Below, piece after piece: positions 1 to 28,100 of a stretch of 64,000 nucleotides of DNA. The stretch is from the NCBI RefSeq assembly GCF_026914265.1, contig NC_069131.1, forward strand, positions 10,804,001-10,868,000, in the 5' to 3' direction. Each line of letters starts with the position of its first letter. Position 1 is the first letter of the stretch. Source of the stretch: Mya arenaria (lineage: Eukaryota > Mollusca > Bivalvia > Myida > Myidae). A program made the translations under genes and the position numbers. Under the pieces are notes generated by a model. That model saw only the letters and a program-made list of their open reading frames with translations, searched no databases and had not been told where the DNA came from.

Positions 1-893
1 TTGACTATTCTAAAAGTCTCACAGTGTTTACTCTTCACACAAATCCGAATTTCTTCATTCAATTGATAATAATTTAAGATCAATTTTATATCAGATAGTT
101 GTAAGAATAGTAAGTCTAATTTCTTTTCTTTTTTTTAAATATGGCCAACAAAAAATTTGAGTCTCTTTAGAAAAAAAAACACCCTGTAACATTGCGCTAA
201 GAAATTTAATGTGTGAAGAATATACCATTGTTGAACTTGTGATCATGTGACTTATGGTGACAAATCACATGATCATTGAAAGCATTACCCAAAATACAAT
301 GCCAAAATGAAATCAAATGAGTTAAATCTGTTAAACTGATCTTGGTATTTTAAATTTCAGAATAGGATATAAAAAGTAGAACTGAAAACTATAACCTCAC
401 TGCAATAAGAGGTACAACTTTCAACTTTTTGATAACTAACACATTACATGAATGTAGAATCACAAATAAGAAATCATCATAATTATTAACAGAAAAACAC
501 AATCATCACATCAAAATATGACTGAGTCTAACAGATATTAAAATTAAAGCTTTATAATACAGAACAACCACACGGTGAATTGTAGAACTATATTTTTTTT
601 AAAACACTACTGCAAATAAAAACTAATTGGTTTAAGGGATTCTAATTTTGAAGATCGAGTACAAAATTGTTTTATTGTTTACAGCTAAATGCATGCTATG
701 AATTTCAATCTTTAATAAAAGTGCTTGTTTAATCTGGGGCTTTATTTAATAACCAACTTAGATTAAACTTAAATTTTAGAATAGAATCAGAGTGTTGTGA
801 TTGGATTGTAAAATTAACCAGCCAATCAAATGAATGGAATCACTGAGGCTTGTCTAAAGATACGGATGAGAAATAATATTGAAAAAGGCCCCA

Positions 894-1144
894 GGGCCCA
901 ATTTCTGGAAACTTCCGAAGCTTAACAGGCTTAAGTAGCTTATTTCAATTAGCCAAAATACATACTTAAATTGAATTTTGATATATGAAAAATGGTTTAT
1001 TGTATTTATCATAAAGTTAAGTCCTATTTAAGTATAAAAACTCTGAAAGATGTTTATATTATGCAAATTTTTGAAACACAAAAATAGAAAGCTTATCTTA
1101 ATCCTGTTATAAGGGACTTAAGAAGTTTGGAGAAATTGTTGCCA
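894..1144. mobile_element. Foldback element with GGCCC-AATTTCT ends (MITE family 1), array copy
   Basis: The inverted ends read AATTTCTGGAAACTTC and, on the other strand, AATTTCTCCAAACTTC, with shared inner blocks CTTAAGTAGCTTATTTCAAT and TCCTGTTATAAGGGACTTAA. It recurs in every array unit (from 6608, 12355, 18068 and 23784) and as an independent copy at 63117-63372. Non-autonomous, no coding. Confidence 0.7.
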
Positions 1145-2115
1145 GTAGATTACACAAACTATCAACTTGTCAACTGTGGTAAGTACTTACTAAACATTTC
1201 ATTTTATACCAACAATATCATTTTAATGAAATCATTTGCCAGGATCCAATTCCTTGTAACTAAATAATATTTTGTTATAACATTAGTACAACTAAGATGA
1301 AACGAACAACAGAACAGGTATTTAACTCATGTTCGACAACTGTTTTCCTTATTGCCATAATGTATATTTACAATGTTCACAAAATTTAAGAATGTTGTTT
1401 TAATCATTCTAAATGTGTCATTGAAAATCTAAAGGTGCATCAATCAATGCTAAAGTTTTAAACAAAATATGCAGAACATTAACAAATATACAAAACAAAT
1501 GTTGTTTACAACTATGATGGCAAAAAGAAACACAGTCAGCATTTAGAGATTTCTTCCTAAAATAACTATCAGTCGAAGGGTGAAAGCGAAAGAGTTCTAT
1601 GTTAATCTTTCAATCATGTCATTTAGGACTGTTTCGCGTTCAACCACGCCATTTCCAGGGCTAAGTGCAAAACAGACATAGCTCTTTCTATATTAAGATG
1701 GAGTTATGACCCTTTTGCACTGAGTTCCAAATTTGCAGACTTGTAATCGTCAGAGAATTGTGGGTAATCAACGTCCGTCACCGATACATCTCATCTGAGA
1801 AGCTACTACTTCGTTGTCTGGGTCCTTAAATAAAAGAATAAGATCGGCACATTTGACTTACACTGTTCGACTATCTTTTAAAGATTTAAATTAGGTATAA
1901 CTCACAAGATAATAAAAATTAATTTCTGTAAGCTCAATTGTGACAAGAGCTGATCAAAGCTGATACAATCCATTCTCTTGGAAGAAACCAGCACTTATGT
2001 CCAACACAGCCTTTTGGGTGAAAGGGGAGCATCTAATACCACTAAAAAACTTTCAACCTTTATACCAAATAGACCAACACAGAGAAATTATTAAACATTT
2101 AAGAAGAATCTGCCC

Positions 2116-2295
2116 TCACCCGTCTCCGGAAGCAATCACCGGCCCTGGGGAATCTTCTTTCCCAGGATCACCTAGGATTTTAAGTGCTAGGAGAGAGGCT
2201 TGGTCTCTAGCAGCCTCGGGGGTGGGGCCTGAGCCATGCAAGGTCTGAGGGGGGCTCGAGACTATGATCAGCCGTGATAGGTACTCATTCGTGCT
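2116..2295 (-). pseudogene. Staufen terminal exon, duplicate 5 (intact)
   Basis: Encodes the same peptide as the copy at 19290-19469, including the VIASGDG end. The splice AG and stop are intact. It is the copy farthest from the gene inside the window, about 24 kb from exon 15. Confidence 0.85.
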
Positions 2296-2303
2296 CTGGA
2301 AAT

Positions 2304-2474
2304 ATATATACATTCGGCCTTCATCAGCAGTGCGTTCAGTAAAGATGTTTGAGGCGAACGTTCGCTGTTTGGTTTCCCGCTTAACGTGTATGCGTAGCGT
2401 TGCAACAGGGATACAAAACAAAACGTTTTGTAAACGCTCGCCTTACTGAACGCACTGCAGGTTGTATGTATATA
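2304..2474. repeat. Hairpin element at array junction D/E
   Basis: Inverted arms of about 35 bp, GCAGTGCGTTCAGTAA (2327-2342) against TTACTGAACGCACTGC (2443-2458), extended by TATATACAT on both outer ends. Two perfect 12-bp palindromes lie inside: GCGAACGTTCGC and CAAAACGTTTTG. No transposase. Its outer edge coincides with the unit junction. Confidence 0.75.
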
Positions 2475-2486
2475 ATGAACAGGAAA

Positions 2487-2510
2487 TGACGTCAACATTA
2501 AATGACGTCA
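2487..2510. promoter_or_regulatory. Paired palindromic CRE-like sites (TGACGTCA x2)
   Basis: Two perfect TGACGTCA octamers, 2487-2494 and 2503-2510, 16 bp apart, followed by an AACGTCAA half-site. The pair recurs in each whole unit at 8201-8224, 13948-13971 and 19661-19684. TGACGTCA is the consensus CREB/ATF site. Function here is untested. Confidence 0.45.
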
Positions 2511-2883
2511 ACGTTGATAACGTCAAAATATAGCATACATTTTTGCGCAAAATAATGTCTTATAGGATCTATAGAGATACAATTATACACTAGATTTTAC
2601 ACTACGTAACACATTCGTATTCATTCGCGCATTTGACAGATGGTGGTAAATTTAACCGAAAAAAATAGAAAAGGGAAAATTAAATAGGCACGTATATAAT
2701 AAATATAAGCTTAATTCAGAGGACATGTATCATGTCTCGTTCGGTGAGTAAACATGTATCCGCCTCGAAGTTATACAGTACAGGTCACCAGAAAAGCGTC
2801 CTACCATAATATCCCCTAAACGAGATGTAGATACTGCGTATGTCAGGTAAGTGGCCTTTCTGTAGTGTGTGAGGGTAAGAACC

Positions 2884-2958
2884 AGCCACCCGGCTCAGTT
2901 GGTAGGAGCGCTGTGCTAGTGTTCCGCCTGTTGTGAATTCAAGCCCTCATACGTGACA
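2884..2958 (+). repeat. tRNA-like SINE head 1 in the array unit
   Basis: An A-box-like GGCTCAGTTGG and a decayed B-box-like GTGAATTCAAGCC, no clean cloverleaf. It shares its upstream flank (GTAAGAACCAG) with head 2, so the two are diverged duplicates. Copies at 8603-8677, 14345-14419 and 20058-20132. Confidence 0.6.
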
Positions 2959-3079
2959 CACTTTTACCTTCCAGATTTACTCTAATAAATGCAGTGGTCA
3001 ATGGCAGGAGTGCCTACAGCCGACTTAAACAGGGTCGACTTAAACAGGTTATTTGGAGGAGTGCGGTGTGTAAGAACCA

Positions 3080-3152
3080 GTCGCCCGATTAGCTCAGTTG
3101 GTTAGAGCGCCGTGCTTGTGTTCCCTCGGCCGTGAGATTGAGCCCGAGGTGA
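3080..3152 (+). repeat. tRNA-like SINE head 2 in the array unit
   Basis: The A-box TTAGCTCAGTTGGTTAGAGC is near consensus. The B-box GAGATTGAGCCC is decayed (GAGTTTGAGCCC in unit C). The anticodon arm does not pair. Copies at 8799-8871, 14541-14613 and 20254-20326. Confidence 0.6.
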
Positions 3153-6100
3153 AAGTGAGCAGGTTCAAGAAAAAAAAAGTAAACGACATAACATGGGTTT
3201 ATCCTTTTTCATTTGCAGACAGATTTCGCTTCATGCTCATCGGGGCAAATCACGTGTTAACACCTTGACCGTAATGAAACCTTGAATGGTATTGGCCATC
3301 CAATATAATTGAACTCAGAACAGGCATCCCAAACGATGACTGGTAACGCAAATGTTTTGGGAAATTAAAGCAAGAATCAGACCACATTTTTGTGTATTAG
3401 AATTTGATATCTACATTAATTTAGTCTTATAATTTGACAGTCGCACACAGTCGCCTCACGGCCTGGGCTCATGCTACACAATTATTCCTATAAAACCACA
3501 ACATTCTTGACCATGTGTTCATCGAGAATTCTATGACCCCGATAGTATTGTTAATTACCTTCGGCGATGAAGATATTTTTAATGTCCTACCACCTACCTA
3601 TAAGTTTCTCATTGACCAATCGCCCTATAACAAACTATCACCCGCAATAGATTTCGCATTTGTCTCATATCTTGTACAGGATCCGCACGTGCATTCACCA
3701 GACTCAATAAATGGACTTCGGGAGCCATGGTTACGAACAGTCTCATGTCCAAGTCTAGACTCAGACTCAGAAAAGCATTTTAATAAAGGAACAAAATCAT
3801 ATTAATTCCATTTCTTTAACAAAAGTGTATGTAAATAATAGCAAAACATTAATATATCTCAGCAAATTATACGAACATTGATCAAAGAGAAGAAAAAATA
3901 CAATGAGCTGAGGTTTTGCCTTGATGAGTCTTGTGTCTGAAATCAGATGAATTTATTGCATAAACCTTCATAAAACTGGCCTCCTAATGCATTTAACGAG
4001 CACGTAAAGCCATATGATATTGGAACTGCAGAGGTCAATGACGCCTTTTCAAGGCAACAAACACTTTTAAGGGACTGAGTTGAACAGGGCAGTCCACGTT
4101 ACCGTTCCAAACTCAACTTCACACTCTAAATCAATGAGTATTACAAAAACGGCAATACGTCGGTTCAGAAAAACCCTACATCAGTGGAGGCTAAATCATG
4201 AAGCTCTATTTACGACGATTTTATATGGCAGCAGATTTTGAATGTAGAACATTTTTGAAGCCAATACAATAATTGTCAAATACATTATTGATTTTCAAAC
4301 TAACACCTTCATAGCTCGTCAAATTTGATACAGTGAGACACTATACGTGAATGCTTAAACTAGGCATCTTAGAATAATTAAAACGTCAGAGATAGATTGT
4401 CAGGAAATGATACCCGGCAAATGAAATGTAAATTATAAAACAAAAATGCTCTGATAACTGTTTATTTTTTTAAGCAACATAATGTTTTGGAGCACTTAAT
4501 ATATGAAGATGGATTAACACATGTATTGCACGATGCCTGTAACTTAAATGTAAGCCCCAGCTCATTCAAACAAGTACGTCTTCATAAAAAACTTCACACA
4601 ATTATATTTCAGGTTAACATTGGTTAATGGTAGACATTAGAATGTTAGAATGGTTGTGTCCGAAAATGTAAAATAAGGCTTTCTATTGGTACAAAGTACT
4701 GATTGGCAATCAATTGTCCACAATGACACTGAAATATCACCACAGAAAGCTGCCTTCACCCAGTCAGAAGGATCCAGGTCAAGGCCAAGGTCAAAAGATA
4801 CACATACAATATTTAAAGTCCTGTTTGAAATCATCATAGCATTTGACAATAAATATGAGCCAACTTTTTTTTACACAAGCAACGAATGACCTGAAACTTA
4901 ATGTATGAAGCATTATGAAAATCTAATTTACAGAATCCGACCCTCAAATTAGCTACTAGCAGTTCTCAGATAGCTCCCATTGACCTTAATGTTCAATTGT
5001 GAGGCCAGGTGACCCTATAAGATGTTGGCATCATTTGAAGGGTATTTGATTGCTGAGTTTAAATATGTAATATACATGTAAATGAACAAAAGTACATCAT
5101 TTCATAAAGTTATTACAGCTTAAATATATTTATAATATTTCTTACACAATCATTGAAAGCAATGCATGTGACACTTAAAATGTATCATTTTGCAATAAAT
5201 GCACTATACTTGATTGATTATTGTTGTCTTAATTCCGGTCATTGATGCTTTGTAAAATAGTACTCGATTGTTCGTATATCTGCACTGTTACATACAACTT
5301 ATGTTTTATATGAAATTATGCTCCATATACCGCCGATTTATAGGTGACTTATAGACCCAATGGGCCTGGTGTAAATGTAAAACTATTTATTATGAAATGT
5401 TGTTACGCTATGTACGCATAACACTATAATAAACAACTTACTGACTGATTTGTTCTTTATAACTGAAATTGGACATACAGGAATCATTTTGAAATCTTTA
5501 AAAGCTGAGTAATTGCGGTTGTTACCTTAGTTTTGTATTTTCTTTATGTGCACACAAAACACTTTCAAATGATACCAAAATCACATGGGGCCACCTTGCA
5601 TACAAAGTCACATATTTGTGAGTCAGATACCTTAAATATCCCATGAGCCAGGGCCACCTGTTTACAAATACATGTATTTATTATTAAAGCAGGGAACAAA
5701 TACCTGTAAGTGTAATACTTTGACTATTCTAAAAGTCTCACAGTGTTTACTCTTCACACAAATCCGAATTTCTTCATTCAATTGATAATAATTTAAGATC
5801 AATTTTATATCAGATAGTTGTAAGAATAGTAAGTCTAATTTCTTTTCTTTTTTTTTAAATATGGCCAACAAAAAATTTGAGTCTCTTTAAAAAAACACTG
5901 TAACATTGCGCTAAGAAATTTAATGTGTGAAGAATATACCATTGTTGAACTTGTGATCATGTGACTTCTGGTGACAAATCACATGATCATTGAAAGCATT
6001 ACCCAAAATACAATGCCAAAATGAAATCAAATGAGTTAAATCTGTTAAACTGATCTTGGTATTTTAAATTTCAGAATAGGATATGAAAAGTAGAACTGAA

Positions 6101-7829
6101 AACTATAACCTCACTGCAATAAGAGGTACAACTTTCAACTTTTTGATAACTAACACATTACATGAATGTAGAATCACAAATAAGAAATCATCATAATTAT
6201 TAACAGAAAAACACAATCATCACATCAAAATATGACTGAGTCTAACAGATATTAAAATTAAAGCTTTATAATACAGAACAACCACACGGTGAATTGTAGA
6301 ACTATATTCTTTTTAAAACACTACTGCAAATAAAAACTAATAGGTTTAAGGGATTCTAATTTTGAAGATCGAGTACAAAATTGTTTTATTGTTTACAGCT
6401 AAATGCATGCTATGAATTTCAATCTTTAATAAAAGTGCTTGTTTAATCTGGGGCTTTATTTAATAACCAACTTAGATTAAACTTAAATTTTAGAATAGAA
6501 TCAGAGTGTTGTGATTGGATTGTAAAATTAACCAGCCAATCAAATGAATGGAATCACTGAGGCTTGTCTAAAGATACGGATGAGAAATAATATTGAAAAA
6601 GGCCCCAGGGCCCAATTTCTGGAAACTTCCGAAGCTTAACAGGCTTAAGTAGCTTATTTCAATTAGCCAAAATACATACTTAAATTGAATTTTGATATAT
6701 GAAAAATGGTTTATTGTATTTATCATAAAGTTAAGTCCTATTTAAGTATAAAAACTCTGAAAGATGTTTATATTATGCAAATTTTTGAAACACAAAAATA
6801 GAAAGCTTATCTTAATCCTGTTATAAGGGACTTAAGAAGTTTGGAGAAATTGTTGCCAGTAGATTACACAAACTATCAACTTGTCAACTGTGGTAAGTAC
6901 TTACTAAACATTTCATTTTATACCAACAATATCATTTTAATGAAATCATTTGCCAGGATCCAATTCCTTGTAACTAAATAATATTTTGTTATAACATTAG
7001 TACAACTAAGATGAAACGAACAACAGAACAGGTATTTAACTCATGTTCGACAACTGTTTTCCTTATTGCCATAATGTATATTTACAATGTTCACAAAATT
7101 TAAGAATGTTGTTTTAATCATTCTAAATGTGTCATTGAAAATCTAAAGGTGCATCAATCAATGCTAAAGTTTTAAACAAAATATGCAGAACATTAACAAA
7201 TATACAAAACAAATGTTGTTTACAACTATGATGGCAAAAAGAAACACAGTCAGCATTTAGAGATTTCTTCCTAAAATAACTATCAGTCGAAGGGTGAAAG
7301 CGAAAGAGTTCTATGTTAATCTTTCAATCATGTCATTTAGGACTGTTTCGCGTTCAACCACGCCATTTCCAGGGCTAAGTGCAAAACAGACATAGCTCTT
7401 TCTATATTAAGATGGAGTTATGACCCTTTTGCACTGAGTTCCAAATTTGCAGACTTGTAATCGTCAGAGAATTGTGGGTAATCAACGTCCGTCACCGATA
7501 CATCTCATCTGAGAAGCTACTACTTCGTTGTCTGGGTCCTTAAATAAAAGAATAAGATCGGCACATTTGACTTACACTGTTCGACTATCTTTTAAAGATT
7601 TAAATTAGGTATAACTCACAAGATAATAAAAATTAATTTCTGTAAGCTCAATTGTGACAAGAGCTGATCAAAGCTGATACAATCCATTCTCTTGGAAGAA
7701 ACCAGCACTTATGTCCAACACAGCCTTTTGGGTGAAAGGGGAGCATCTAATACCACTAAAAAACTTTCAACCTTTATACCAAATAGACCAACACAGAGAA
7801 ATTATTAAACATTTAAGAAGAATCTGCCC

Positions 7830-8009
7830 TCACCCGTCTCCGGAAGCAATCACCGGCCCTGGGGAATCTTCTTTCCCAGGATCACCTAGGATTTTAAGTG
7901 CTAGGAGAGAGGCTTGGTCTCTAGCAGCCTCGGGGGTGGGGCCTGAGCCATGCAAGGTCTGAGGGGGGCTCGAGACTATGATCAGCCGTGATAGGTACTC
8001 ATTCGTGCT
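7830..8009 (-). pseudogene. Staufen terminal exon, duplicate 4 (intact)
   Basis: Encodes the same peptide as the copy at 19290-19469, including the VIASGDG end. The splice AG and stop are intact. Confidence 0.85.
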
Positions 8010-8017
8010 CTGGAAAT

Positions 8018-8188
8018 ATATATACATTCGGCCTTCATCAGCAGTGCGTTCAGTAAAGATGTTTGAGGCGAACGTTCGCTGTTTGGTTTCCCGCTTAACG
8101 TGTATGCGTAGCGTTGCAACAGGGATACAAAACAAAACGTTTTGTAAACGCTCGCCTTACTGAACGCACTGCAGGTTGTATGTATATA
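8018..8188. repeat. Hairpin element at array junction C/D
   Basis: Same inverted-arm element as 2304-2474, at the same place in the unit. Confidence 0.75.
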
Positions 8189-11100
8189 ATGAACAGGAAA
8201 TGACGTCAACATTAAATGACGTCAACGTTGATAACGTCAAAATATAGCATACATTTTTGCGCAAAATAATGTCTTATAGGATCTATAGAGATACAATTAT
8301 ACACTAGATTTTACACTACGTAACACATTCGTATTCATTCGCGCATTTGACAGATGGTGGTAAATTTAACCGAAAAAAATAGAAAAGGGAAAATTAAATA
8401 GGCACGTATATAATAAATATAAGCTTAATTCAGAGGACATGTATCATGTCTCGTTCGGTGAGTAAACATGTATCCGCCTCGAAGTTATACAGTACAGGTC
8501 ACCAGAAAAGCGTCCTACCATAATATCCCCTAAACGAGATGTAGATACTGCGTATGTCAGGTAAGTGGCCTTTCTGTAGACTAGTGTGTGAGGGTAAGAA
8601 CCAGCCACCCGGCTCAGTTGGTAGGAGCGCTGTGCTAGTGTTCCGCCTGTTGTGAATTCAAGCCCTCATACGTGACACACTTTTACCTTCCAGATTTACT
8701 CTAATAAATGCAGTGGTCAATGGCAGGAGTGCCTATAGCCGACTTAAACAGGGACGACTTAAACAGGTCATTTGAAGGAGTGCGGTGTGTAAGAACCAGT
8801 CGCCCGATTAGCTCAGTTGGTTAGAGCGCCGTGCTTGTGTTCCCTCGGCCGTGAGTTTGAGCCCGAGGTGAAAGTGAGCAGGTTCAAGAAAAAAAAGCAA
8901 ACGGCATAACATGGGTTTATCCTTTTTCTTTGCAGACAGATTTCGCTTCATGCTCATCGGGGCAAATTACGTGTTAACACCTTGACCGTAATGAAACCTT
9001 GAATGGTATTGGCCATCCAATATAATTGAACTCAGAACAGGCATCCCAAACGATGACTGGTAACGCAAATGTTTTGGGAAATTAAAGCAAGAATCAGACC
9101 ACATTTTTGTGTATTAGAATTTGATATCTACATTAATTTAGTCTTATAATTTGACAGTCGCACACAGTCGCCTAACGGCCTGGGCTCATGCTACACAATT
9201 ATTCCTATAAAACCACAACATTCATGACCATGTGTTCATCGATAATTATATGACCCCGATAGTATTGTTAATTACCTTCGGCGATGAAGATATTTTTTAA
9301 TGTCCTACCACCTAGCTATAAGTTTCTCATTGACCAGTCGCCCTATAACAAACTACATTGTATCACCCGCAATAGATTTCGCATTTGTCTCATATCTTGT
9401 ACAGGATCCGCACGTGCATTCACCAGACTCAATAAATGGACTTCGGGGGCCATGGTTACGAACAGTCTCATGTCCAAGTCTAAACTCAGACTCAGAAAAG
9501 CATTTTAATAAAGGAACAAAATCATATTAATTCCATTTCTTTAACAAAAGTGTATGTAAATAATAGCAAAACATTAATATATCTCAGCAAATTTTACGAA
9601 CATTGATCAAAGAGAAGAAAAAATACAATGAGCTGAGGTTTTGCCTTGATGAGTCTTGTGTCTGAACTCAGACTTGAGACTGTTCGTAATGCATAAAGCT
9701 TCATAAAACTGGCCTCCTAATGCATTTAACGAGCACGTCAAGCCATATTGGAACTGCAGAGGTCAATGACGCCTTTTAAAGGCAACAAACACTTAAAAGG
9801 GACTGGGTTGAACAGGGCAGTCCACGTTACCGTTCCAAACTCAACTTCACACTCTAAATCAATTAGTAAATCTCAATTGAGTAATACAAAAACGACAATA
9901 CATCGGTTCAGAAAAACCCTACATCAGTGGAGGCTAAATCATGAAGCTCTATTTACGACGATTTTATATGGCAGCAGATTTTTTGAATGTAGAACATTTT
10001 TGAAGCCAATACAATAATTGTCTAATACATTATTGATTTTCAAACTAACGTCTTCATAGCTCGTCACATTTGATACAGTGAGACACTAGTTTAATGCTTA
10101 AACTAGGCATCTTAGAATAATTAAAACGTCAGAGATAGATTGTCAGGAAATGATACCCGGCAAATGAAATGTAAATTATAAAACAAAAATGCTCTGATAA
10201 CTGTTTATTTTTTTAAGCAACATAATGTTTTGGAGCACTTAATATATGAAGATGGATTAACACATGTATTGCACGATGCCTGTAACTTAAATGTAAGCCC
10301 CAGCTCATTCAAACAAGTACGTCTTCATAAAAAACTTCACACAATTATATTTCAGGTAAACATTGGTTAATGGTAGACATTAGAATGTTAGAATGGTTGT
10401 GTCCGAAAATGTAAAATAAGGCTTTCTATTGGTACAAAGTACTGATTGGCAATCAAATGTCCACAATGACACTGAAATATCACCACAGAAAGCTGCCTTC
10501 ACCCAGTCAGAAGGATCCAGGTCAAGGCCAAGGTCAAAAGATACACATACAATATTTAAAGTCCTGTTTGAAATCATCATAGCATTTGACAATAAATATG
10601 AGCTAACTTTTTTTTACACAAGCAACGAATGACCTGAAACTTAATGTATGAAGCATAATGAAAATCTAATTTACAGAATCCGACTCTCAAATTAGCTACT
10701 AGCAGTTCTCAGATAGCTCCCATTGACCTTAATGTTCAATTGTGAGGCCAGGTGACCCTATAAGATGTTGGCATCATTTGAAGGGTATTTGATTGCTGAG
10801 TTTAAATATGTAATATACATGTAAATGAACAAAAGTACATCATTTCATACAGTTATTACAGCTTGAATATATTTATAATATTTCTTACACAATCATTGAA
10901 AGCAATGCATGTGACACTTAAAATGTATCATTTTGAAATAAATGCACTATACTTGATTGATTATTGTTGTCTTAATTCCGGTCATTGATGCTTTGTAAAA
11001 TAGTACTCGATTGTTCGTATATCTGCACTGTTACATACAACTTATGTTTTATATGAAATTATGCTCCATATACCGCCGATTTATAGGTGACTTATAGACC

Positions 11101-13766
11101 CAATGGGCCTGGTGTAAATGTAAAACTATTTATTATGAAATGTTGTTATGCTATGTACACATAACACTATAATAAACAACTTACTGACTGATTTGTTCTT
11201 TATAACTGAAATTGGACATACAGGAATCATTTTGAAATCTTTAAAAGCTGAGTAATTGCGGTTGTTACCTTAGTTTTGTATTTTCTTTATGTGCACACAA
11301 AACACTTTCAAATGATACCAAAATCACATGGGGCCACCTTGCATACAAAGTCACATATTTGTGAGTCTGATACCTTAAATATCCCATGAGCCAGGGCCCC
11401 CTGTTTACAAATACATGTATTTATTATTAAAGCAGGGAACAAATACCTGTAAGTGTAATACTTTGACTATTCTAAAAGTCTCACAGTGTTTACTCTTCAC
11501 ACAAATCCGAATTTCTTCATTCAATTGATAATAATTTAAGATCAATTTTATATCAGATAGTTGTAAGAATAGTAAGTCTAATTTCTTTTCTTTTTTTTAA
11601 ATATGGCCAACAAAAAATTTGAGTCTCTTTAGAAAAAAAACACCCTGTAACATTGCGCTAAGAAATTTAATGTGTGAAGAATATACCATTGTTGAACTTG
11701 TGATCATGTGACTTATGGTGACAAATCACATGATCATTGAAAGCATTACCCAAAATACAATGCCAAAATGAAATCAAATGAGTTAAATCTGTTAAACTGA
11801 TCTTGGTATTTTAAATTTCAGAATAGGATATAAAAAGTAGAACTGAAAACTATAACCTCACTGCAATAAGAGGTACAACTTTCAACTTTTTGATAACTAA
11901 CACATTACATGAATGTAGAATCACAAATAAGAAATCATCATAATTATTAACAGAAAAACACAATCATCACATCAAAATATGACTGAGTCTAACAGATATT
12001 AAAATTAAAGCTTTATAATACAGAACAACCACACGGTGAATTGTAGAACTATATTTTTTTTAAAACACTACTGCAAATAAAAACTAATTGGTTTAAGGGA
12101 TTCTAATTTTGAAGATCGAGTACAAAATTGTTTTATTGTTTACAGCTAAATGCATGCTATGAATTTCAATCTTTAATAAAAGTGCTTGTTTAATCTGGGG
12201 CTTTATTTAATAACCAACTTAGATTAAACTTAAATTTTAGAATAGAATCAGAGTGTTGTGATTGGATTGTAAAATTAACCAGCCAATCAAATGAATGGAA
12301 TCACTGAGGCTTGTCTAAAGATACGGATGAGAAATAATATTGAAAAAGGCCCCAGGGCCCAATTTCTGGAAACTTCCGAAGCTTAACAGGCTTAAGTAGC
12401 TTATTTCAATTAGCCAAAATACATACTTAAATTGAATTTTGATATATGAAAAATGGTTTATTGTATTTATCATAAAGTTAAGTCCTATTTAAGTATAAAA
12501 ACTCTGAAAGATGTTTATATTATGCAAATTTTTGAAACACAAAAATAGAAAGCTTATCTTAATCCTGTTATAAGGGACTTAAGAAGTTTGGAGAAATTGT
12601 TGCCAGTAGATTACACAAACTATCAACTTGTCAACTGTGGTAAGTACTTACTAAACATTTCATTTTATACCAACAATATCATTTTAATGAAATCATTTGC
12701 CAGGATCCAATTCCTTGTAACTAAATAATATTTTGTTATAACATTAGTACAACTAAGATGAAACGAACAACAGAACAGGTATTTAACTCATGTTCGACAA
12801 CTGTTTTCCTTATTGCCATAATGTATATTTACAATGTTCACAAAATTTAAGAATGTTGTTTTAATCATTCTAAATGTGTCATTGAAAATCTAAAGGTGCA
12901 TCAATCAATGCTAAAGTTTTAAACAAAATATGCAGAACATTAACAAATATACAAAACAAATGTTGTTTACAACTATGATGGCAAAAAGAAACACAGTCAG
13001 CATTTAGAGATTTCTTCCTAAAATAACTATCAGTCGAAGGGTGAAAGCGAAAGAGTTCTATGTTAATCTTTCAATCATGTCATTTAGGACTGTTTCGCGT
13101 TCAACCACGCCATTTCCAGGGCTAAGTGCAAAACAGACATAGCTCTTTCTATATTAAGATGGAGTTATGACCCTTTTGCACTGAGTTCCAAATTTGCAGA
13201 CTTGTAATCGTCAGAGAATTGTGGGTAATCAACGTCCGTCACCGATACATCTCATCTGAGAAGCTACTACTTCGTTGTCTGGGTCCTTAAATAAAAGAAT
13301 AAGATCGGCACATTTGACTTACACTGTTCGACTATCTTTTAAAGATTTAAATTAGGTATAACTCACAAGATAATAAAAATTAATTTCTGTAAGCTCAATT
13401 GTGACAAGAGCTGATCAAAGCTGATACAATCCATTCTCTTGGAAGAAACCAGCACTTATGTCCAACACAGCCTTTTGGGTGAAAGGGGAGCATCTAATAC
13501 CACTAAAAAACTTTCAACCTTTATACCAAATAGACCAACACAGAGAAATTATTAAACATTTAAGAAGAATCTGCCCTCACCCGTCTCCGGAAGCAATCAC
13601 CGGCCCTGGGGAATCTTCTTTCCCAGGATCACCTAGGATTTTAAGTGCTAGGAGAGAGGCTTGGTCTCTAGCAGCCTCGGGGGTGGGGCCTGAGCCATGC
13701 AAGGTCTGAGGGGGGCTCGAGACTATGATCAGCCGTGATAGGTACTCATTCGTGCTCTGGAAATAT
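8020..13766 (-). repeat. 5.7 kb tandem array, unit C
   Basis: 5747 bp, the longest unit because of small insertions around 8577-8582, 9350 and 9860-9890. It contains the terminal-exon copy at 13577-13756, tRNA-like heads at 8603-8677 and 8799-8871, and paired TGACGTCA sites at 8201-8224. Confidence 0.95.
13577..13756 (-). pseudogene. Staufen terminal exon, duplicate 3 (intact)
   Basis: Encodes the same peptide as the copy at 19290-19469, including the VIASGDG end. The splice AG and stop are intact. Confidence 0.85.
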
Positions 13767-13935
13767 ATATACATTCGGCCTTCATCAGCAGTGCGTTCAG
13801 TAAAGATGTTTGAGGCGAACGTTCGCTGTTTGGTTTCCCGCTTAACGTGTATGCGTAGCGTTGCAACAGGGATACAAAACAAAACGTTTTGTAAACGCTC
13901 GCCTTACTGAACGCACTGCAGGTTGTATGTATATA
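13765..13935. repeat. Hairpin element at array junction B/C
   Basis: Same inverted-arm element as 2304-2474, at the same place in the unit. Confidence 0.75.
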
Positions 13936-16900: not shown

Positions 16901-19479
16901 ACTGACTGATTTGTTCTTTATAACTGAAATTGGACATACAGGAATCATTTTGAAATCTTTAAAAGCTGAGTAATTGCGGTTGTTACCTTAGTTTTGTATT
17001 TTCTTTATGTGCACACAAAACACTTTCAAATGATACCAAAATCACATGGGGCCACCTTGCATACAAAGTCACATATTTGTGAGTCAGATACCTTAAATAT
17101 CCCATGAGCCAGGGCCCCCTGTTTACAAATACATGTATTTATTATTAAAGCAGGGAACAAATACCTGTAAGTGTAATACTTTGACTATTCTAAAAGTCTC
17201 ACAGTGTTTACTCTTCACACAAATCCGAATTTCTTCATTCAATTGATAATAATTTAAGATCAATTTTATATCAGATAGTTGTAAGAATAGTAAGTCTAAT
17301 TTCTTTTCTTTTTTTTAAATATGGCCAACAAAAAATTTGAGTCTCTTTAAAAAAACACTGTAACATTGCGCTAAGAAATTTAATGTGTGAAGAATATACC
17401 ATTGTTGAACTTGTGATCATGTGACTTCTGGTGACAAATCACATGATCATTGAAAGCATTACCCAAAATACAATGCCAAAATGAAATCAAATGAGTTAAA
17501 TCTGTTAAACTGATCTTGGTATTTTAAATTTCAGAATAGGATATGAAAAGTAGAACTGAAAACTATAACCTCACTGCAATAAGAGGTACAACTTTCAACT
17601 TTTTGATAACTAACACATTACATGAATGTAGAATCACAAATAAGAAATCATCATAATTATTAACAGAAAAACACAATCATCACATCAAAATATGACTGAG
17701 TCTAACAGATATTAAAATTAAAGCTTTATAATACAGAACAACCACACGGTGAATTGTAGAACTATATTCTTTTTAAAACACTACTGCAAATAAAAACTAA
17801 TAGGTTTAAGGGATTCTAATTTTGAAGATCGAGTACAAAATTGTTTTATTGTTTACAGCTAAATGCATGCTATGAATTTCAATCTTTAATAAAAGTGCTT
17901 GTTTAATCTGGGGCTTTATTTAATAACCAACTTAGATTAAACTTAAATTTTAGAATAGAATCAGAGTGTTGTGATTGGATTGTAAAATTAACCAGCCAAT
18001 CAAATGAATGGAATCACTGAGGCTTGTCTAAAGATACGGATGAGAAATAATATTGAAAAAGGCCCCAGGGCCCAATTTCTGGAAACTTCCGAAGCTTAAC
18101 AGGCTTAAGTAGCTTATTTCAATTAGCCAAAATACATACTTAAATTGAATTTTGATATATGAAAAATGGTTTATTGTATTTATCATAAAGTTAAGTCCTA
18201 TTTAAGTATAAAAACTCTGAAAGATGTTTATATTATGCAAATTTTTGAAACACAAAAATAGAAAGCTTATCTTAATCCTGTTATAAGGGACTTAAGAAGT
18301 TTGGAGAAATTGTTGCCAGTAGATTACACAAACTATCAACTTGTCAACTGTGGTAAGTACTTACTAAACATTTCATTTTATACCAACAATATCATTTTAA
18401 TGAAATCATTTGCCAGGATCCAATTCCTTGTAACTAAATAATATTTTGTTATAACATTAGTACAACTAAGATGAAACGAACAACAGAACAGGTATTTAAC
18501 TCATGTTCGACAACTGTTTTCCTTATTGCCATAATGTATATTTACAATGTTCACAAAATTTAAGAATGTTGTTTTAATCATTCTAAATGTGTCATTGAAA
18601 ATCTAAAGGTGCATCAATCAATGCTAAAGTTTTAAACAAAATATGCAGAACATTAACAAATATACAAAACAAATGTTGTTTACAACTATGATGGCAAAAA
18701 GAAACACAGTCAGCATTTAGAGATTTCTTCCTAAAATAACTATCAGTCGAAGGGTGAAAGCGAAAGAGTTCTATGTTAATCTTTCAATCATGTCATTTAG
18801 GACTGTTTCGCGTTCAACCACGCCATTTCCAGGGCTAAGTGCAAAACAGACATAGCTCTTTCTATATTAAGATGGAGTTATGACCCTTTTGCACTGAGTT
18901 CCAAATTTGCAGACTTGTAATCGTCAGAGAATTGTGGGTAATCAACGTCCGTCACCGATACATCTCATCTGAGAAGCTACTACTTCGTTGTCTGGGTCCT
19001 TAAATAAAAGAATAAGATCGGCACATTTGACTTACACTGTTCGACTATCTTTTAAAGATTTAAATTAGGTATAACTCACAAGATAATAAAAATTAATTTC
19101 TGTAAGCTCAATTGTGACAAGAGCTGATCAAAGCTGATACAATCCATTCTCTTGGAAGAAACCAGCACTTATGTCCAACACAGCCTTTTGGGTGAAAGGG
19201 GAGCATCTAATACCACTAAAAAACTTTCAACCTTTATACCAAATAGACCAACACAGAGAAATTATTAAACATTTAAGAAGAATCTGCCCTCACCCGTCTC
19301 CGGAAGCAATCACCGGCCCTGGGGAATCTTCTTTCCCAGGATCACCTAGGATTTTAAGTGCTAGGAGAGAGGCTTGGTCTCTAGCAGCCTCGGGGGTGGG
19401 GCCTGAGCCATGCAAGGTCTGAGGGGGGCTCGAGACTATGATCAGCCGTGATAGGTACTCATTCGTGCTCTGGAAATAT
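13767..19479 (-). repeat. 5.7 kb tandem array, unit B
   Basis: 5713 bp, in direct tandem with its neighbours with no spacer. It contains the intact terminal-exon copy at 19290-19469, a foldback element from about 18068, tRNA-like heads at 14345-14419 and 14541-14613, and paired TGACGTCA sites at 13948-13971. Confidence 0.95.
19290..19469 (-). pseudogene. Staufen terminal exon, duplicate 2 (intact)
   Basis: The same 180-nt exon as 25000-25179, with the acceptor TTTCCAG, the open frame and TGA preserved. It differs by Ser to Ile near the C-terminus (VIASGDG for VSASGDG, two base changes in one codon) and one silent Leu codon change. Listed as pseudogene only because no transcript evidence exists; it could serve as an alternative last exon. 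Confidence 0.85.
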
Positions 19480-19648
19480 ATATACATTCGGCCTTCATCA
19501 GCAGTGCGTTCAGTAAAGATGTTTGAGGCGAACGTTCGCTGTTTGGTTTCCCGCTTAACGTGTATGCGTAGCGTTGCAACAGGGATACAAAACAAAACGT
19601 TTTGTAAACGCTCGCCTTACTGAACGCACTGCAGGTTGTATGTATATA
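19478..19648. repeat. Hairpin element at array junction A/B
   Basis: Same inverted-arm element as 2304-2474. It is absent at the gene-side end of the array (25190), where intron 15 begins instead. Confidence 0.75.
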
Positions 19649-22600
19649 ATGAACAGGAAATGACGTCAACATTAAATGACGTCAACGTTGATAACGTCAA
19701 AATATAGCATACATTTTTGCGCAAAATAATGTCTTATAGGATCTATAGAGATACAATTATACACTAGATTTTACACTACGTAACACATTCGTATTCATTC
19801 GCGCATTTGACAGATGGTGGTAAATTTAACCGAAAAAAATAGAAAAGGGAAAATTAAATAGGCACGTATATAATAAATATAAGCTTAATTCAGAGGACAT
19901 GTATCATGTCTCGTTCGGTGAGTAAACATGTATCCGCCTCGAAGTTATACAGTACAGGTCACCAGAAAAGCGTCCTACCATAATATCCCCTAAACGAGAT
20001 GTAGATACTGCGTATGTCAGGTAAGTGGCCTTTCTGTAGTGTGTGAGGGTAAGAACCAGCCACCCGGCTCAGTTGGTAGGAGCGCTGTGCTAGTGTTCCG
20101 CCTGTTGTGAATTCAAGCCCTCATACGTGACACACTTTTACCTTCCAGATTTACTCTAATAAATGCAGTGGTCAATGGCAGGAGTGCCTACAGCCGACTT
20201 AAACAGGGTCGACTTAAACAGGTTATTTGGAGGAGTGCGGTGTGTAAGAACCAGTCGCCCGATTAGCTCAGTTGGTTAGAGCGCCGTGCTTGTGTTCCCT
20301 CGGCCGTGAGATTGAGCCCGAGGTGAAAGTGAGCAGGTTCAAGAAAAAAAAAGTAAACGACATAACATGGGTTTATCCTTTTTCATTTGCAGACAGATTT
20401 CGCTTCATGCTCATCGGGGCAAATCACGTGTTAACACCTTGACCGTAATGAAACCTTGAATGGTATTGGCCATCCAATATAATTGAACTCAGAACAGGCA
20501 TCCCAAACGATGACTGGTAACGCAAATGTTTTGGGAAATTAAAGCAAGAATCAGACCACATTTTTGTGTATTAGAATTTGATATCTACATTAATTTAGTC
20601 TTATAATTTGACAGTCGCACACAGTCGCCTCACGGCCTGGGCTCATGCTACACAATTATTCCTATAAAACCACAACATTCTTGACCATGTGTTCATCGAG
20701 AATTCTATGACCCCGATAGTATTGTTAATTACCTTCGGCGATGAAGATATTTTTAATGTCCTACCACCTACCTATAAGTTTCTCATTGACCAATCGCCCT
20801 ATAACAAACTATCACCCGCAATAGATTTCGCATTTGTCTCATATCTTGTACAGGATCCGCACGTGCATTCACCAGACTCAATAAATGGACTTCGGGAGCC
20901 ATGGTTACGAACAGTCTCATGTCCAAGTCTAGACTCAGACTCAGAAAAGCATTTTAATAAAGGAACAAAATCATATTAATTCCATTTCTTTAACAAAAGT
21001 GTATGTAAATAATAGCAAAACATTAATATATCTCAGCAAATTATACGAACATTGATCAAAGAGAAGAAAAAATACAATGAGCTGAGGTTTTGCCTTGATG
21101 AGTCTTGTGTCTGAAATCAGATGAATTTATTGCATAAACCTTCATAAAACTGGCCTCCTAATGCATTTAACGAGCACGTAAAGCCATATGATATTGGAAC
21201 TGCAGAGGTCAATGACGCCTTTTCAAGGCAACAAACACTTTTAAGGGACTGAGTTGAACAGGGCAGTCCACGTTACCGTTCCAAACTCAACTTCACACTC
21301 TAAATCAATGAGTATTACAAAAACGGCAATACGTCGGTTCAGAAAAACCCTACATCAGTGGAGGCTAAATCATGAAGCTCTATTTACGACGATTTTATAT
21401 GGCAGCAGATTTTGAATGTAGAACATTTTTGAAGCCAATACAATAATTGTCAAATACATTATTGATTTTCAAACTAACACCTTCATAGCTCGTCAAATTT
21501 GATACAGTGAGACACTATACGTGAATGCTTAAACTAGGCATCTTAGAATAATTAAAACGTCAGAGATAGATTGTCAGGAAATGATACCCGGCAAATGAAA
21601 TGTAAATTATAAAACAAAAATGCTCTGATAACTGTTTATTTTTTTAAGCAACATAATGTTTTGGAGCACTTAATATATGAAGATGGATTAACACATGTAT
21701 TGCACGATGCCTGTAACTTAAATGTAAGCCCCAGCTCATTCAAACAAGTACGTCTTCATAAAAAACTTCACACAATTATATTTCAGGTTAACATTGGTTA
21801 ATGGTAGACATTAGAATGTTAGAATGGTTGTGTCCGAAAATGTAAAATAAGGCTTTCTATTGGTACAAAGTACTGATTGGCAATCAATTGTCCACAATGA
21901 CACTGAAATATCACCACAGAAAGCTGCCTTCACCCAGTCAGAAGGATCCAGGTCAAGGCCAAGGTCAAAAGATACACATACAATATTTAAAGTCCTGTTT
22001 GAAATCATCATAGCATTTGACAATAAATATGAGCCAACTTTTTTTTACACAAGCAACGAATGACCTGAAACTTAATGTATGAAGCATTATGAAAATCTAA
22101 TTTACAGAATCCGACCCTCAAATTAGCTACTAGCAGTTCTCAGATAGCTCCCATTGACCTTAATGTTCAATTGTGAGGCCAGGTGACCCTATAAGATGTT
22201 GGCATCATTTGAAGGGTATTTGATTGCTGAGTTTAAATATGTAATATACATGTAAATGAACAAAAGTACATCATTTCATACAGTTATTACAGCTTGAATA
22301 TATTTATAATATTTCTTACACAATCATTGAAAGCAATGCATGTGACACTTAAAATGTATCATTTTGCAATAAATGCACTATACTTGATTGATTATTGTTG
22401 TCTTAATTCCGGTCATTGATGCTGGGTAAAATAGTACTCGATTGTTCTATATCTGCACTGTTACATACAACTTATGTTTTATATGAACTTATGCTCCATA
22501 TACCGCCGACATATAGGTGACGTATAGACCCAATGGGCCTGGTGTAAATGTAAAACTATTTATTATGAAATGTTGTTACGCTATGTACGCATAACACTAT

Positions 22601-23885
22601 AATAAACAACTTACTAACTGATTTGTTCTTTATAACTGAAATTGGACATACAGGAATCATTTTGAAATCTTTAAAAGCTGAGTAATTGCGGTTGTTACCT
22701 TAGTTTTGTATTTTCTTTATGTGCACACAAAACACTTTCAAATGATACCACATCACATGGGGCCACCTTGCATACAAAGTCACATATTTGTGAGTCAGAT
22801 ACCTTAAATATCCCATGAGCCAGGGCCCCCTGTTTACAAATACATGTATTTATTATTAAAGCAGGGAACAAATACCTGTAAGTGTAATACTTTGACTATT
22901 CTAAAGTCTCACAGTGTTTACTCTTCACACAAATCCGAATTTCTTCATTCAATTGATAATAATTTAAGATCAATTTTATATCAGATAGTTGTAAGAATAG
23001 TAAGTCTAATTTCTTTTCTTTTTTTTTTAAATATGGCCAACAAAAAATTTGAGTCTCTTTAGAAAAAAAAACCCTGTAACATTGCGCTAAGAAATTTAAT
23101 GTGTGAAGAATATACCATTGTTGAACTTGTGATCATGTGACTTATGGTGACAAATCACATGATCATTGAAAGCATTACCCAAAATACAATGCCAAAATGA
23201 AATCAAATGAGTTAAATCTGTTAAACTGATCTTGGTATTTTAAATTTCAGAATAGGATATAAAAAGTAGAACTGAAAACTATAACCTCACTGCAATAAGA
23301 GGTACAACTTTCAACTTTTTGATAACTAACACATTACATGAATGTAGAATCACAAATAAGAAATCATCATAATTATTAACAGAAAAACACAATCATCACA
23401 TCAAAATATGACTGAGTCTAACAGATATTAAAATTAAAGCTTTATAATACAGAACAACCACACGGTGAATTGTAGAACTATATATTTTTTAAAACACTAC
23501 TGCAAATAAAAACTAATTGGTTTAAGGGATTCTAATTTTGAAGATCGAGTACAAAATTGTTTTATTGTTTACAGCTAAATGCATGCTATGAATTTCAATC
23601 TTTAATAAAAGTGCTTGTTTAATCTGGGGCTTTATTTAATAACCAACTTAGATTAAACTTAAATTTTAGAATAGAATCAGAGTGTTGTGATTGGATTGTA
23701 AAATTAACCAGCCAATCAAATGAATGGAATCACTGAGGCTTGTCTAAAGATACGGATGAGAAATAATATTGAAAAAGGCCCCAGGGCCCAATTTCTGGAA
23801 ACTTCCGAAGCTTAACAGGCTTAAGTAGCTTATTTCAATTAGCCAAAATACATACTTAAATTGAATTTTGATATATGAAAAATGG

Positions 23886-23891
23886 TTTATT
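23886..23891 (-). promoter_or_regulatory. First AATAAA downstream of the Staufen stop (possible poly(A) signal)
   Basis: This is the first canonical AATAAA on the minus strand below the stop codon, implying a 3' UTR of about 1.1 kb. It lies inside the foldback element carried by each array unit, so each terminal-exon copy has its own signal at the same offset (for example 996-1001 in the leftmost unit). Confidence 0.35.
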
Positions 23892-24999
23892 GTATTTATC
23901 ATAAAGTTAAGTCCTATTTAAGTATAAAAACTCTGAAAGATGTTAATATTATGCAAATTTTTGAAACACAAAAATAGAAAGCTTATCTTAATCCTGTTAT
24001 AAGGGACTTAAGAAGTTTGGAGAAATTGTTGCCAGTAGATTACACAAACTATCAACTTGTCAACTGTGGTAAGTACTTACTAAACATTTCATTTTATACC
24101 AACAATATCATTTTAATGAAATCATTTGCCAGGATCCAATTCCTTGTAACTAAATAATATTTTGTTATAACATTAGTACAACTAAGATGAAACGAACAAC
24201 AGAACAGGTATTTAACTCATGTTCGACAACTGTTTTCCTTATTGCCATAATGTATATTTACAATGTTCACAAAATTTAAGAATGTTGTTTTAATCATTCT
24301 AAATGTGTCATTGAAAATTTAAAGGTGCATCAATCAATGCTAAACTTTTAAACAAAATATGCAGAACATTAACAAATATACAAAACAAATGTTGTTTACA
24401 ACTATGATGGCAAAAAGAAACACAGTCAGCATTTAGAGATTTCTTCCTAAAATAACTATCAGTCGAAGGGTGAAAGCGAAAGAGTTCTATGTTAATCTTT
24501 CAATCATGTCATTTAGGACTGTTTCGCGTTCAACCACGCCATTTCCAGGGCTAAGTGCAAAACAGACATAGCTCTTTCTATATTAAGATGGAGTTATGAC
24601 CCTTTTGCACTGAGTTCCAAATTTGCAGACTTGTAATCGTCAGAGAATTGTGGGTAATCAACGTCCGTCACCGATACATCTCATCTGAGAAGCTACTACT
24701 TCGTTGTCTGGGTCCTTAAATAAAAGAATAAGATCGGCACATTTGACTTACACTGTTCGACTATCTTTTAAAGATTTAAATTAGGTATAACTCACAAGAT
24801 AATAAATATTAATTTCTGTAAGCTAAATTGTGACAAGAGCTGATACAATCCATTCTCTTGGAAGAAACCAGCACTTATGTCCAACACAGCCTTTTGGGTG
24901 AAAGGAGAGCATCTAATACCACTAAAAAACTTTCAACCTTTATACCAAGTAGACCATCACAGAGAAAGTAATTATTAAACATTTAAGAAGAATCTGCCC

Positions 25000-25179
25000 T
25001 CACCCGTCTCCGGAAGCAGACACCGGCCCTGGGGAATCTTCTTTCCCAGGATCACCCAGGATTTTAAGTGCTAGGAGAGAGGCTTGGTCTCTAGCAGCCT
25101 CGGGGGTGGGGCCTGAGCCATGCAAGGTCTGAGGGGGGCTCGAGACTATGATCAGCCGTGATAGGTACTCATTCGTGCT
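25000..25179 (-). CDS. stau: Staufen exon 16 (terminal coding exon, dsRBD5 second half and stop)
   Basis: The acceptor ATTTCCAG precedes 25179. The exon reads [20 protein letters not shown], then [16 protein letters not shown], and ends SASGDG then TGA. It continues exon 15 in phase and completes dsRBD5. It lies at the gene-side end of the 5.7 kb tandem array, whose other units each carry a further copy of this exon. Confidence 0.93.
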   Translation of the reverse strand, partial: STNEYLSRLIIVSSPPQTLHGSGPTPEAARDQASLLALKILGDPGKEDSPGPVSASGDG

Positions 25180-28100
25180 CTGGAAATATGTGTCATGAAT
25201 AAATGAACACTTCATTCAGCTTAACATGAATATGCAAATACTCAATACATATTCATATGAATATATAAACAGTTCTTTCATCTTAAGATGAATATATGAA
25301 CACTTCATTCAGTTTAACATGAATATGTAAATACTCAATACATATTCATATTAATACATAAACAGTTCAATCATCTTAAAATCAATATATGAATATATAA
25401 ACAGTTCATTCATCTCAAGATGAATATATAAACAGTTCATTCATCTTAACATGAATGTCCAGAAATCATTAAACTCAGTACAGGGCCTGCCGGCTTGTGG
25501 TAATTTTGATCACTGCATTTAGCGAATGGGATCTGGCCTTCCTTTTTTTCAAAAAGAAATTCACAATTTTGACTATAATTGGAATTTCCAGTCTCAAAAA
25601 CAACAGGGCTGGTGATGACCATCCTGCCTACCTAGTTTGAGGGGCCTTGGAATAAGAGATCACAAGTTATTGATAGGAAACTATGGGGACAGACACATGG
25701 ACAGACTGATGGCCTAATCACTTTATGCCACCATTCAGCCGCATAAAAATGCCACGCCCTAGTATGACACAAACTAGCCAACTCATGGTCTAACACCTAA
25801 GCCGGAAAACCATTGCGTACATAAATACAATTATTCATTTAATAGGGTAACTGCACCATGAATTATTTTCAATCATCTAAGGAATATTAATTTGCCATAT
25901 AAACATTTACAGACATCAAAACATTTTACACAACTCATCCAGGAAAAATGTTAGTAAGCTTGCCAAAGGATTGCTCTTTTACAAATTTCCGGGACTCATT
26001 GAATAAAATTGTGCATTATTAATGGTGATGGGTGACAGATCCTATTTGTATTTTTTATATTTGGTTGGTTGATACCTCATCATAGCTTATATTCACTAAA
26101 TTATATGAGAACAGAACAGATGTTTATTCAGACTCTACACTGAAGTACATTGTAAATGCAGTTGAAGTTGTACATGATAATGATGATACACGTGTCCGAC
26201 AAATAAACAAACATTGAACTACATACAGAGTAGCGTCACTTACCGAGCCAGCAAACTCGTCAAACTTGATTTCCAGGTTTTTGCGGATACAGGCCTCCCT
26301 CAGTTTGAGTTCAGGCCTGTTTGTGAACTGGGAAACATTTGATACAGGGCTGGAGAAATGTAGACCTGAAATATTACTCTGTAAGTACATGTATGTACAG
26401 GAGCTTGATCACGTTAAGTGAGCATGCAGTTAGGTGAAATCAGAAATAGAAAGGTTTTATGTACATGTGAAATGACCCAAATCCTCAAAACATCTTAAGT
26501 CCCTTATAACAGGATCAAGCTAAACACACTTCTTTTATTTCAGAATAATTTGTATGATAATCTGGAGAGCTCTGAGACTTTATCTTTATCAGAATCAAGA
26601 CAAACTCTAGCAGAATGATAAACCTTGGTACCACTTGTGTACCCCAGTCCCCGCCCCCATCACCCAACAATCTCCCTACCTTTGAGTGAAGAGTAGTTGG
26701 CCCTGTTTCCCTCTGGCAGAATGATAAGCCCTGGGACCGCCTGTCTGGTGCCATTCATCACTGGGCCTAAAGACACAGCAAGACATAGGAATTATCACAC
26801 CATGAATAATGTTATAAATTTGATGTAAAACTTCATACAATCATGTCTTGGTATAACTTAAAGCTGCACTCTCACAGATTGAACGTTTTGACAACTTTTT
26901 TATATTTTGTCTTGGAACGAGCAAATTTTTGCTTAAATATCTGCAAACCAGTGTAAAAAGACTGCTGACAAAATATCAGATCGCAGATTGTCATATTTCC
27001 ATTCCAAATTTGATGTTTTTAGCATTTTTCTTAAACCGTTAGTAATGGTTTAAGCCATAAAACATCAATTTTGGAACGGAATTATGAAAATCTGCGATCT
27101 GACCTTTTGTCAGCAGCCTTATATCACTGGTTTGCAGATATTTATGCAAAAAGTTGTTCATTCTAAGACAAAAAATAAAAAAGTTGGAAAAACGATAAAT
27201 CTGTAAGAGTGCAGCTTTAAGAGGGCAACATGATATGGCTAATGAACTACTTGTGTAAAAAGTTGTCATTTATTGTCCAAACAAATATAATTTCAAGATT
27301 TAGTCCTATTAAACAGTAATTTATAGATTTTTTTACAAATAATTTATTTTATGGTTAAACTGCAAAATATCAATACCTACATTAAAAAGATATAAACATA
27401 TTTAAAGACTTAATTATTTTAATACCTGATTCTTCAGTTCTGTCAGAAAACGTCACCTTTTTCTCACTCAAGCCAGTCTGTAGAAAGAAACAGGTCTCGT
27501 CACCACATGAAATTGTTCGTAATATTTTTTTAAGAATATGTCACAAATAAACAAAAGAAGTAAAGCAAAACACTGTTGATGTTATACATCAATAATCTTT
27601 ATGACTTTTTCACAAACTACAACAATAGTTACAAACCATTCAAAATTATGCAAAAAATAATGTTAAGTTGTTGACTAAGACACCAGCAATTATTGACTCA
27701 CATCTCCCTGCATTTTGATGGCTGGTTTGACTGGCTGTGGTGAGGGCTTGTTAAATCCGAGCATCTGTAACATGGACTCAGCAGCATGACGTTTGGCCAG
27801 CTTCTTGTTGGGCCCCACCCCTGTACATGTATGTTCATCCACCTGCACCTAGCGATAGATCATACATAGTGAGTGAATTAAACAGTCTCCGTTCATATGC
27901 TCATCACACTGCACCTGGTGATACATGGGGAGTGAATTAAACAGCCTTAGCTCATATGCTCATCAAACTGCACCTGGCGATACATGGGGAGTGAATTAAA
28001 CAGCCTTAGCTCATATGCTCATCACACTGCACCTGGTGATACATGGGGAGTGAATGTAACAGCCTTAGCTCATATGCTCATCAAACTGCACCTAGTGATA

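Follow-up and report, generated by a model that had tools for sequence, protein, structure and literature searches.

As far as excerpts of the cited papers go, repeated 3' exons are known from Drosophila, in which pip has repeated, mutually exclusive terminal exons and PGRP-LC has mutually exclusive 3' variable regions (PMC9013439). Exon-bearing repeats of several kilobases (kb) are known from LPA, whose KIV-2 unit of about 5.5 kb is highly variable in copy number (PMC12123407), and from D4Z4, in which near-identical 3.3 kb units contain two exons each (PMC4965136). Excerpts from studies of Drosophila populations describe frequent, recent, and often strain-specific segmental and tandem duplications, the tandem ones forming new gene structures (PMC6380325, PMC5460883); 83.4% of the duplications in PMC6380325 are shorter than 500 bp. 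Here, we analyzed a stretch of 64,000 nucleotides (nt) from the bivalve Mya arenaria (contig NC_069131.1, positions 10,804,001 to 10,868,000; hereafter the window), in which a tandem array with an exon of a Staufen gene in every unit adjoins the 3' end of that gene. Judging from the sequence, we consider it likely that this is a young array of part of the gene, in which the unit attached to the gene serves as its functional 3' end, with the distal copies as passengers. Because the copies are nearly identical, they look more like the product of a young duplication than like a new route to different Staufen proteins. The literature matches listed contained no account of amplification of an exon in a Staufen gene, which does not prove that there is none.

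The array and the adjoining Staufen gene

Positions 1–25189 of the window are taken up by an array of head-to-tail units, 5.71–5.75 kb in length and read on the minus strand. When the window was aligned to itself with BLAST, the matches lay roughly 5.72, 11.46, 17.18, and 22.89 kb apart, with identities of 98.6–99.3%: 1–19479 matched 5720–25189 (98.6%), 1–13766 matched 11463–25189 (99.0%), 1–8019 matched 17181–25189 (99.3%), and 1–2305 matched 22892–25189 (98.7%). On these alignments, chance cannot explain an identity of about 98.6% across 19 kb of array. Cutting the units at a common boundary yielded lengths of 5710 (U1), 5713 (U2), 5747 (U3), and 5714 nt (U4), and 2305 nt for the partial U5:

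19480–25189, minus strand: unit U1, attached to the gene, with exon 16, candidate exon 17, and downstream DNA (self-BLAST, unit comparison)
13767–19479, minus strand: unit U2 (self-BLAST, unit comparison)
8020–13766, minus strand: unit U3 (self-BLAST, unit comparison)
2306–8019, minus strand: unit U4 (unit comparison)
1–2305, minus strand: unit U5, partial, cut by the window edge (unit comparison)
19501–19632, minus strand: 16-nt perfect inverted repeat near the distal breakpoint of the unit, at the end of U1 (arms 19501–19516 and 19617–19632, 100 nt apart)

The assembly thus holds at least 4.4 units, and the far end of the array lies beyond window position 1. The array boundary is sharp, and every unit starts 10 nt upstream of exon 16, which codes for the second half of double-stranded RNA-binding domain 5 (dsRBD5) of Staufen. 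At the proximal breakpoint, which is marked by 10 nt common to the unique intron and the units, ATATTTCCAG, the sequence reads ...TCATGACAC on the gene side and ...CGAATGTATAT in the array. One and the same junction sequence is present at all four internal unit boundaries. With its multi-kb, near-identical, head-to-tail units, the array has the make-up of a macrosatellite or an exon-bearing variable-number tandem repeat. Inside each unit there are also two stretches, 76% alike (at 20049–20319), that look like transfer RNA (tRNA) by eye and are called by neither ARAGORN nor Rfam; they are perhaps remnants of short interspersed elements (SINEs).

The gene was modelled from 40483 onward, and the exon numbers 15 and 16 are taken from an earlier note on this DNA. 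Thirteen exons from 40483 to 26244, together with the exon at 25179, make up 14 modelled exons in a single reading frame. The conceptual protein displays the several dsRBDs of a Staufen protein, with matches to Pfam dsrm in four stretches (164 bits), as well as the C-terminal Staufen_C family (PF16482; 29.6 bits, cut-off 27). Its end aligns to the dsRBD5 chains 5cff (Staufen; E = 2.5e-05) and 4dkk (Staufen homolog 1; E = 1.9e-04) in the PDB. Across the stretch checked, the gene therefore reads as an intact, otherwise ordinary animal Staufen. Searches for relatives of exon 16 in bacterial and archaeal contigs gave 296 pattern matches, and in viral contigs 26, of which none was confirmed in either set, as expected for an animal gene. 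The 3' part of the gene and the exon copies are arranged as follows:

26244–26365, minus strand: exon 15, first part of dsRBD5, ending in phase 0, with its donor at 26243 (reading frame; alignment to 5cff and 4dkk)
25190–26243, minus strand: intron 15, between the two dsRBD5 exons, single-copy in the window
25004–25179, minus strand: exon 16 as linked to the gene, encoding the second half of dsRBD5, 176 nt (reading frame, Pfam, structure alignment)
19294–19469, minus strand: exon 16 copy in U2 (unit comparison, acceptor scoring)
13581–13756, minus strand: exon 16 copy in U3 (unit comparison, acceptor scoring)
7834–8009, minus strand: exon 16 copy in U4 (unit comparison, acceptor scoring)
2120–2295, minus strand: exon 16 copy in U5 (unit comparison, acceptor scoring)
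24668–24707, minus strand: tentative candidate exon 17, in-frame QRSSSFSDEMYR and then a stop; sequence present in all five units

The last ~260 nt of intron 15 are an A+T-rich 31/93-nt minisatellite (25194–25456). According to an excerpt of PMC4600727, the dsRBD5 residues that bind Miranda are located, in the structure from the fly, on strands 1 to 3 and in two loops. Because exon 16 encodes only the second half of the domain, a lone distal copy yields no whole dsRBD5.

The earlier note had reported four complete units and a partial one beside a Staufen gene, an exon of dsRBD5 in each, and a phase 0 end of exon 15 before the donor at 26243; self-BLAST and unit comparison, the dsrm, Staufen_C, 5cff, and 4dkk matches, and the reading frame, respectively, confirm all of this. 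The acceptors lie at 25180, 19470, 13757, 8010, and 2296, as it had stated, with the AG kept in all five, and the frame that it had called open does reach the same TGA in each copy. Its claim that a Staufen exon is copied in tandem thus stands; that this is the last coding exon is uncertain, because a strong donor, CGG|GTGAGG following the exon end at 25004, overlaps the TGA of exon 16. If the donor at 25003 is unused, the stop of the gene-linked copy is TGA 25002–25000. This donor scores 7.9 with a matrix from 13 other donors of this gene, which is higher than 11 of the 13 leave-one-out scores, and ranks in the best 0.75% of GTs on the minus strand. Against candidate exon 17 counts its acceptor (24708), whose score of −3.3 is below all 13 reference acceptors; another acceptor, 8 nt upstream of it, scores 1.7 and would make the tail shorter. 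All these scores come from weak matrices, trained on 13 exons of this gene, for which the acceptor leave-one-out scores range from −2.4 to 9.1. Exon 16 may hence not be the last coding exon. These possible gene ends lie within the unit, and their sequence is found in all five units.

Relatedness of the units

Substitutional divergence across the units is 0–1.2%, but it is unevenly distributed, some units being far closer to each other than others. U1 and U2 differ by 28 substitutions in 5700 positions, U1 and U3 by 69 in 5695, and U2 and U3 by 55 in 5704 (0.96%). In contrast, a single substitution in 5713 positions and one homopolymer indel separate U2 from U4, and U3 and U5 have no substitution in 2304 positions, with one homopolymer indel. 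A dimer of 11.46 kb forms the higher-order unit; it was either amplified last or repeated by the assembly. Given the near identity within these two pairs and the gap between U2 and U3, the copies beyond U1–U3 represent a very recent duplication of the dimer or an assembly effect.

Among U1–U4, 21 variable sites distinguish U1 alone, 48 distinguish U3 alone, and one distinguishes U4 alone, while seven separate U1 and U3 from U2 and U4. These sites are arranged in blocks along the unit, U1 siding with U3 in one part and with U2 and U4 elsewhere; such a pattern would result from exchange between units or from an assembly that switched haplotypes. U2, U3, and U4 are free of substitutions at unit positions 1–1671 and 5000–5710, which flank the junction on both sides. 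U3 has a 5-nt insertion at unit position 5150, past which U1–U4 contain neither substitutions nor indels. Three of the 28 substitutions between U1 and U2, two of them adjacent, fall within the 176 nt of exon 16 out of about 5700 nt (Fisher p = 0.054, towards excess); as judged from these counts, the exon shows no constraint relative to the remaining unit.

Distal exon copies and origin of the array

The residues encoded by exon 16 are identical in U2–U5, and U1 differs from them at one position, with S in U1 versus I (codons TCT and ATT) in the tail after the dsRBD. Splicing to a distal copy would therefore add almost no protein diversity. Joining one exon 16 to another shifts the frame and leads to a stop eight residues past the junction codon, so chaining gives no protein with multiple dsRBD5s. 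Since the 3' regions of the units are nearly identical, the polymerase would have to run through the entire 3' end of the gene, in one copy or more, before it came to a distal exon. The open frames in the copies weigh little here, because few changes usually spare the frame (17 of 522 single substitutions create a stop) and divergence is low.

In the likely course of events, a segment of 5.7 kb, reaching from the last 10 nt of intron 15 to a point about 5.5 kb beyond exon 16, would first have undergone head-to-tail duplication. Unequal exchange or rolling amplification would then have multiplied the copies, most recently as the dimer. Through U1, which adjoins exon 15 and would supply an ordinary 3' end, the gene would stay functional. 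The distal copies would be intact because they are young, and normally unreached because transcription would stop in U1.

Several points weigh against this course. That transcription ends in U1 and that the distal copies are silent is what we infer, and should U4–U5 stem from the assembly, the true array would have fewer units. The distal acceptors, with AG kept and different sequence upstream, score 4.54 compared with 5.20 for U1 in the crude 13-exon matrix; they are not visibly broken and could thus be usable if transcribed. Past candidate exon 17, U1 contains 15 poly(A) signals (7 AATAAA and 8 ATTAAA), a number that does not significantly exceed shuffles of two-base blocks (mean 10.8; 28 of 200 reach 15), so these signals pinpoint no 3' end. 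As far as the sequence goes, the distal exons could be used, though this is improbable.

The strongest competitor, to which we assign an appreciable chance short of even, is that the array is in part an artefact of assembly: U1 and one or two more units would be real, and a repeat loop walked twice, or two haplotypes joined, would have produced the U2–U3/U4–U5 dimer. The U2/U4 and U3/U5 pairs accumulate only one substitution and two homopolymer indels in about 8.0 kb, in favor of this explanation, and the 0.96% between the neighbours U2 and U3 is in the range possible between two haplotypes, which could differ by about that much in a very heterozygous animal. The 28–69 pairwise substitutions among U1, U2, and U3, however, lie in blocks and are unlike a simple two-haplotype pattern. 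As a head-to-tail junction is required in any case, these differences make it likely that at least one extra unit is real. A partial artefact is compatible with a young partial-gene array, and the probabilities of the two overlap. Far less probable is the capture of a Staufen exon by a mobile element or by a repeated cluster of non-coding genes, which the unit would then represent; the sharp array boundary and the perfect inverted repeat close to the distal end would suit it. Yet the unit runs continuously with exon 16 of the gene itself, no Rfam match was obtained in the U1 region (19300–25300) at E values up to 1, and TC...CTRR, the end motifs of Helitrons, were not seen on inspection by eye. 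U1 contains 25 open reading frames of at least 50 residues; none of the 10 scanned exceeded a Pfam cut-off (one weak match, to MIOX, 15.3 versus 25 bits, and no other), and among the remaining 15, the exon 16 frame was covered in the scan of the Staufen protein. A CTGATGA...GAA motif that looks like a hammerhead and is reminiscent of Penelope-like elements, located at the end of the unit, was dropped after a permissive Rfam scan gave no match.

The earlier note had proposed that exon 15 is joined to any of five or more copies as working alternative last exons, giving mRNAs with different 3' ends. The phase 0 donor is compatible with every copy, each of the five has an AG and an open frame, and pip and PGRP-LC offer a precedent by analogy, as excerpted from PMC9013439; repeated copies with an acceptor and a compatible phase are thus present five times over, as in a pip-type cluster, with the terminality of exon 16 itself uncertain. 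Such isoforms would, however, hardly differ, given the single residue between U1 and the mutually identical U2–U5 exons and the near-identical 3' regions, and with chaining out of frame, the proposal of different products finds no support. A search for docking-like pairing, confined to exact matches between intron 15 and the one 600-nt stretch before the U2 exon, gave a longest complement of 10 nt, which 25 of 50 shuffles reached. We regard working alternative last exons as improbable, and we give equally little credence, on the sequence, to a copy-number-variable Staufen 3' end in which some transcripts pass U1 and are spliced or polyadenylated distally. In that case, the length of the array would set the share of mRNA per copy and influence Staufen level or mRNA fate, with the protein unchanged. 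In the young partial-gene array that we favor, if it is real, the 3' end of a gene has been caught multiplying, with a dimeric structure and signs of exchange between units within a few kb. At this locus, gene predictors may produce spurious isoforms or additional partial Staufen genes.

Other repeats and comparison with known systems

The intron before the second dsRBD4 exon of the Staufen gene holds a minisatellite of 58–60-nt units (28400–29674 and 27862–28103, in the region 27849–29978), in which the genuine splice acceptor is copied along with ~20 nt from the start of the exon. At up to 8 mismatches in 24, there are 18 decoy places and the true one, all 19 preceded by AG; elsewhere in the window, on both strands, the same threshold gives 14 places, none preceded by AG. 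All 18 decoys run into a stop when read in frame to the exon end without further splicing. This minisatellite is split by one copy of a ~297-nt repeat with a tRNA-like head, whose two copies, in opposite orientation and 94.6% alike, lie at 28103–28399 and 50223–50517; from its sequence, the repeat is probably a SINE. ARAGORN calls a tRNA-Asn in it at 28106–28176, and at gathering scores, Rfam gave only tRNA matches in the whole window (28110–28177 and 50443–50514), with none in the array. At 30887–31607, another Staufen intron minisatellite repeats the near-palindrome AAGGTTATATCTAACCTT, in part as a higher-order unit of 78 nt. Further tandem arrays lie at 33281–33958 (30 nt; beginning about 26 nt beyond the donor at 33984), 38568–39724 (179 nt), and 52421–53232 (44 nt), and a dispersed fold-back element, with copies matching in both orientations and about 79–84% alike, at 26858–27220, 63510–63862, and 40028–40202.

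By analogy, the kind of array found here is already known, from terminal-exon clusters, exon-bearing multi-kb repeats, and young duplications. With pip, PGRP-LC, and CG42235 (excerpts of PMC9013439), the Staufen locus shares several head-to-tail copies of a terminal exon, each with its own acceptor; the copies in those genes are reported to be expressed and mutually exclusive, whereas the Staufen copies are nearly identical and known from sequence alone, with no docking-like pairing seen in the one stretch compared. D4Z4, as excerpted, resembles it as a macrosatellite with exons in every unit, but D4Z4 units hold the whole DUX4 open reading frame, and Staufen units hold only the tail of the gene, with the gene body at one end of the array. 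In LPA, KIV-2 coding exons likewise occur in near-identical tandem copies, which are internal and add protein domains. The likeness, to the extent of the excerpt, is a repeated multi-kb unit inside a gene; the Staufen unit differs in holding the 3' end of the gene, and in that chaining of exon 16 shifts the frame. Compared with the young duplications excerpted from Drosophila, the Staufen case is a multi-copy array with a 5.7 kb unit and, if real, would show how terminal-exon clusters like that of pip may start, before their copies diverge.

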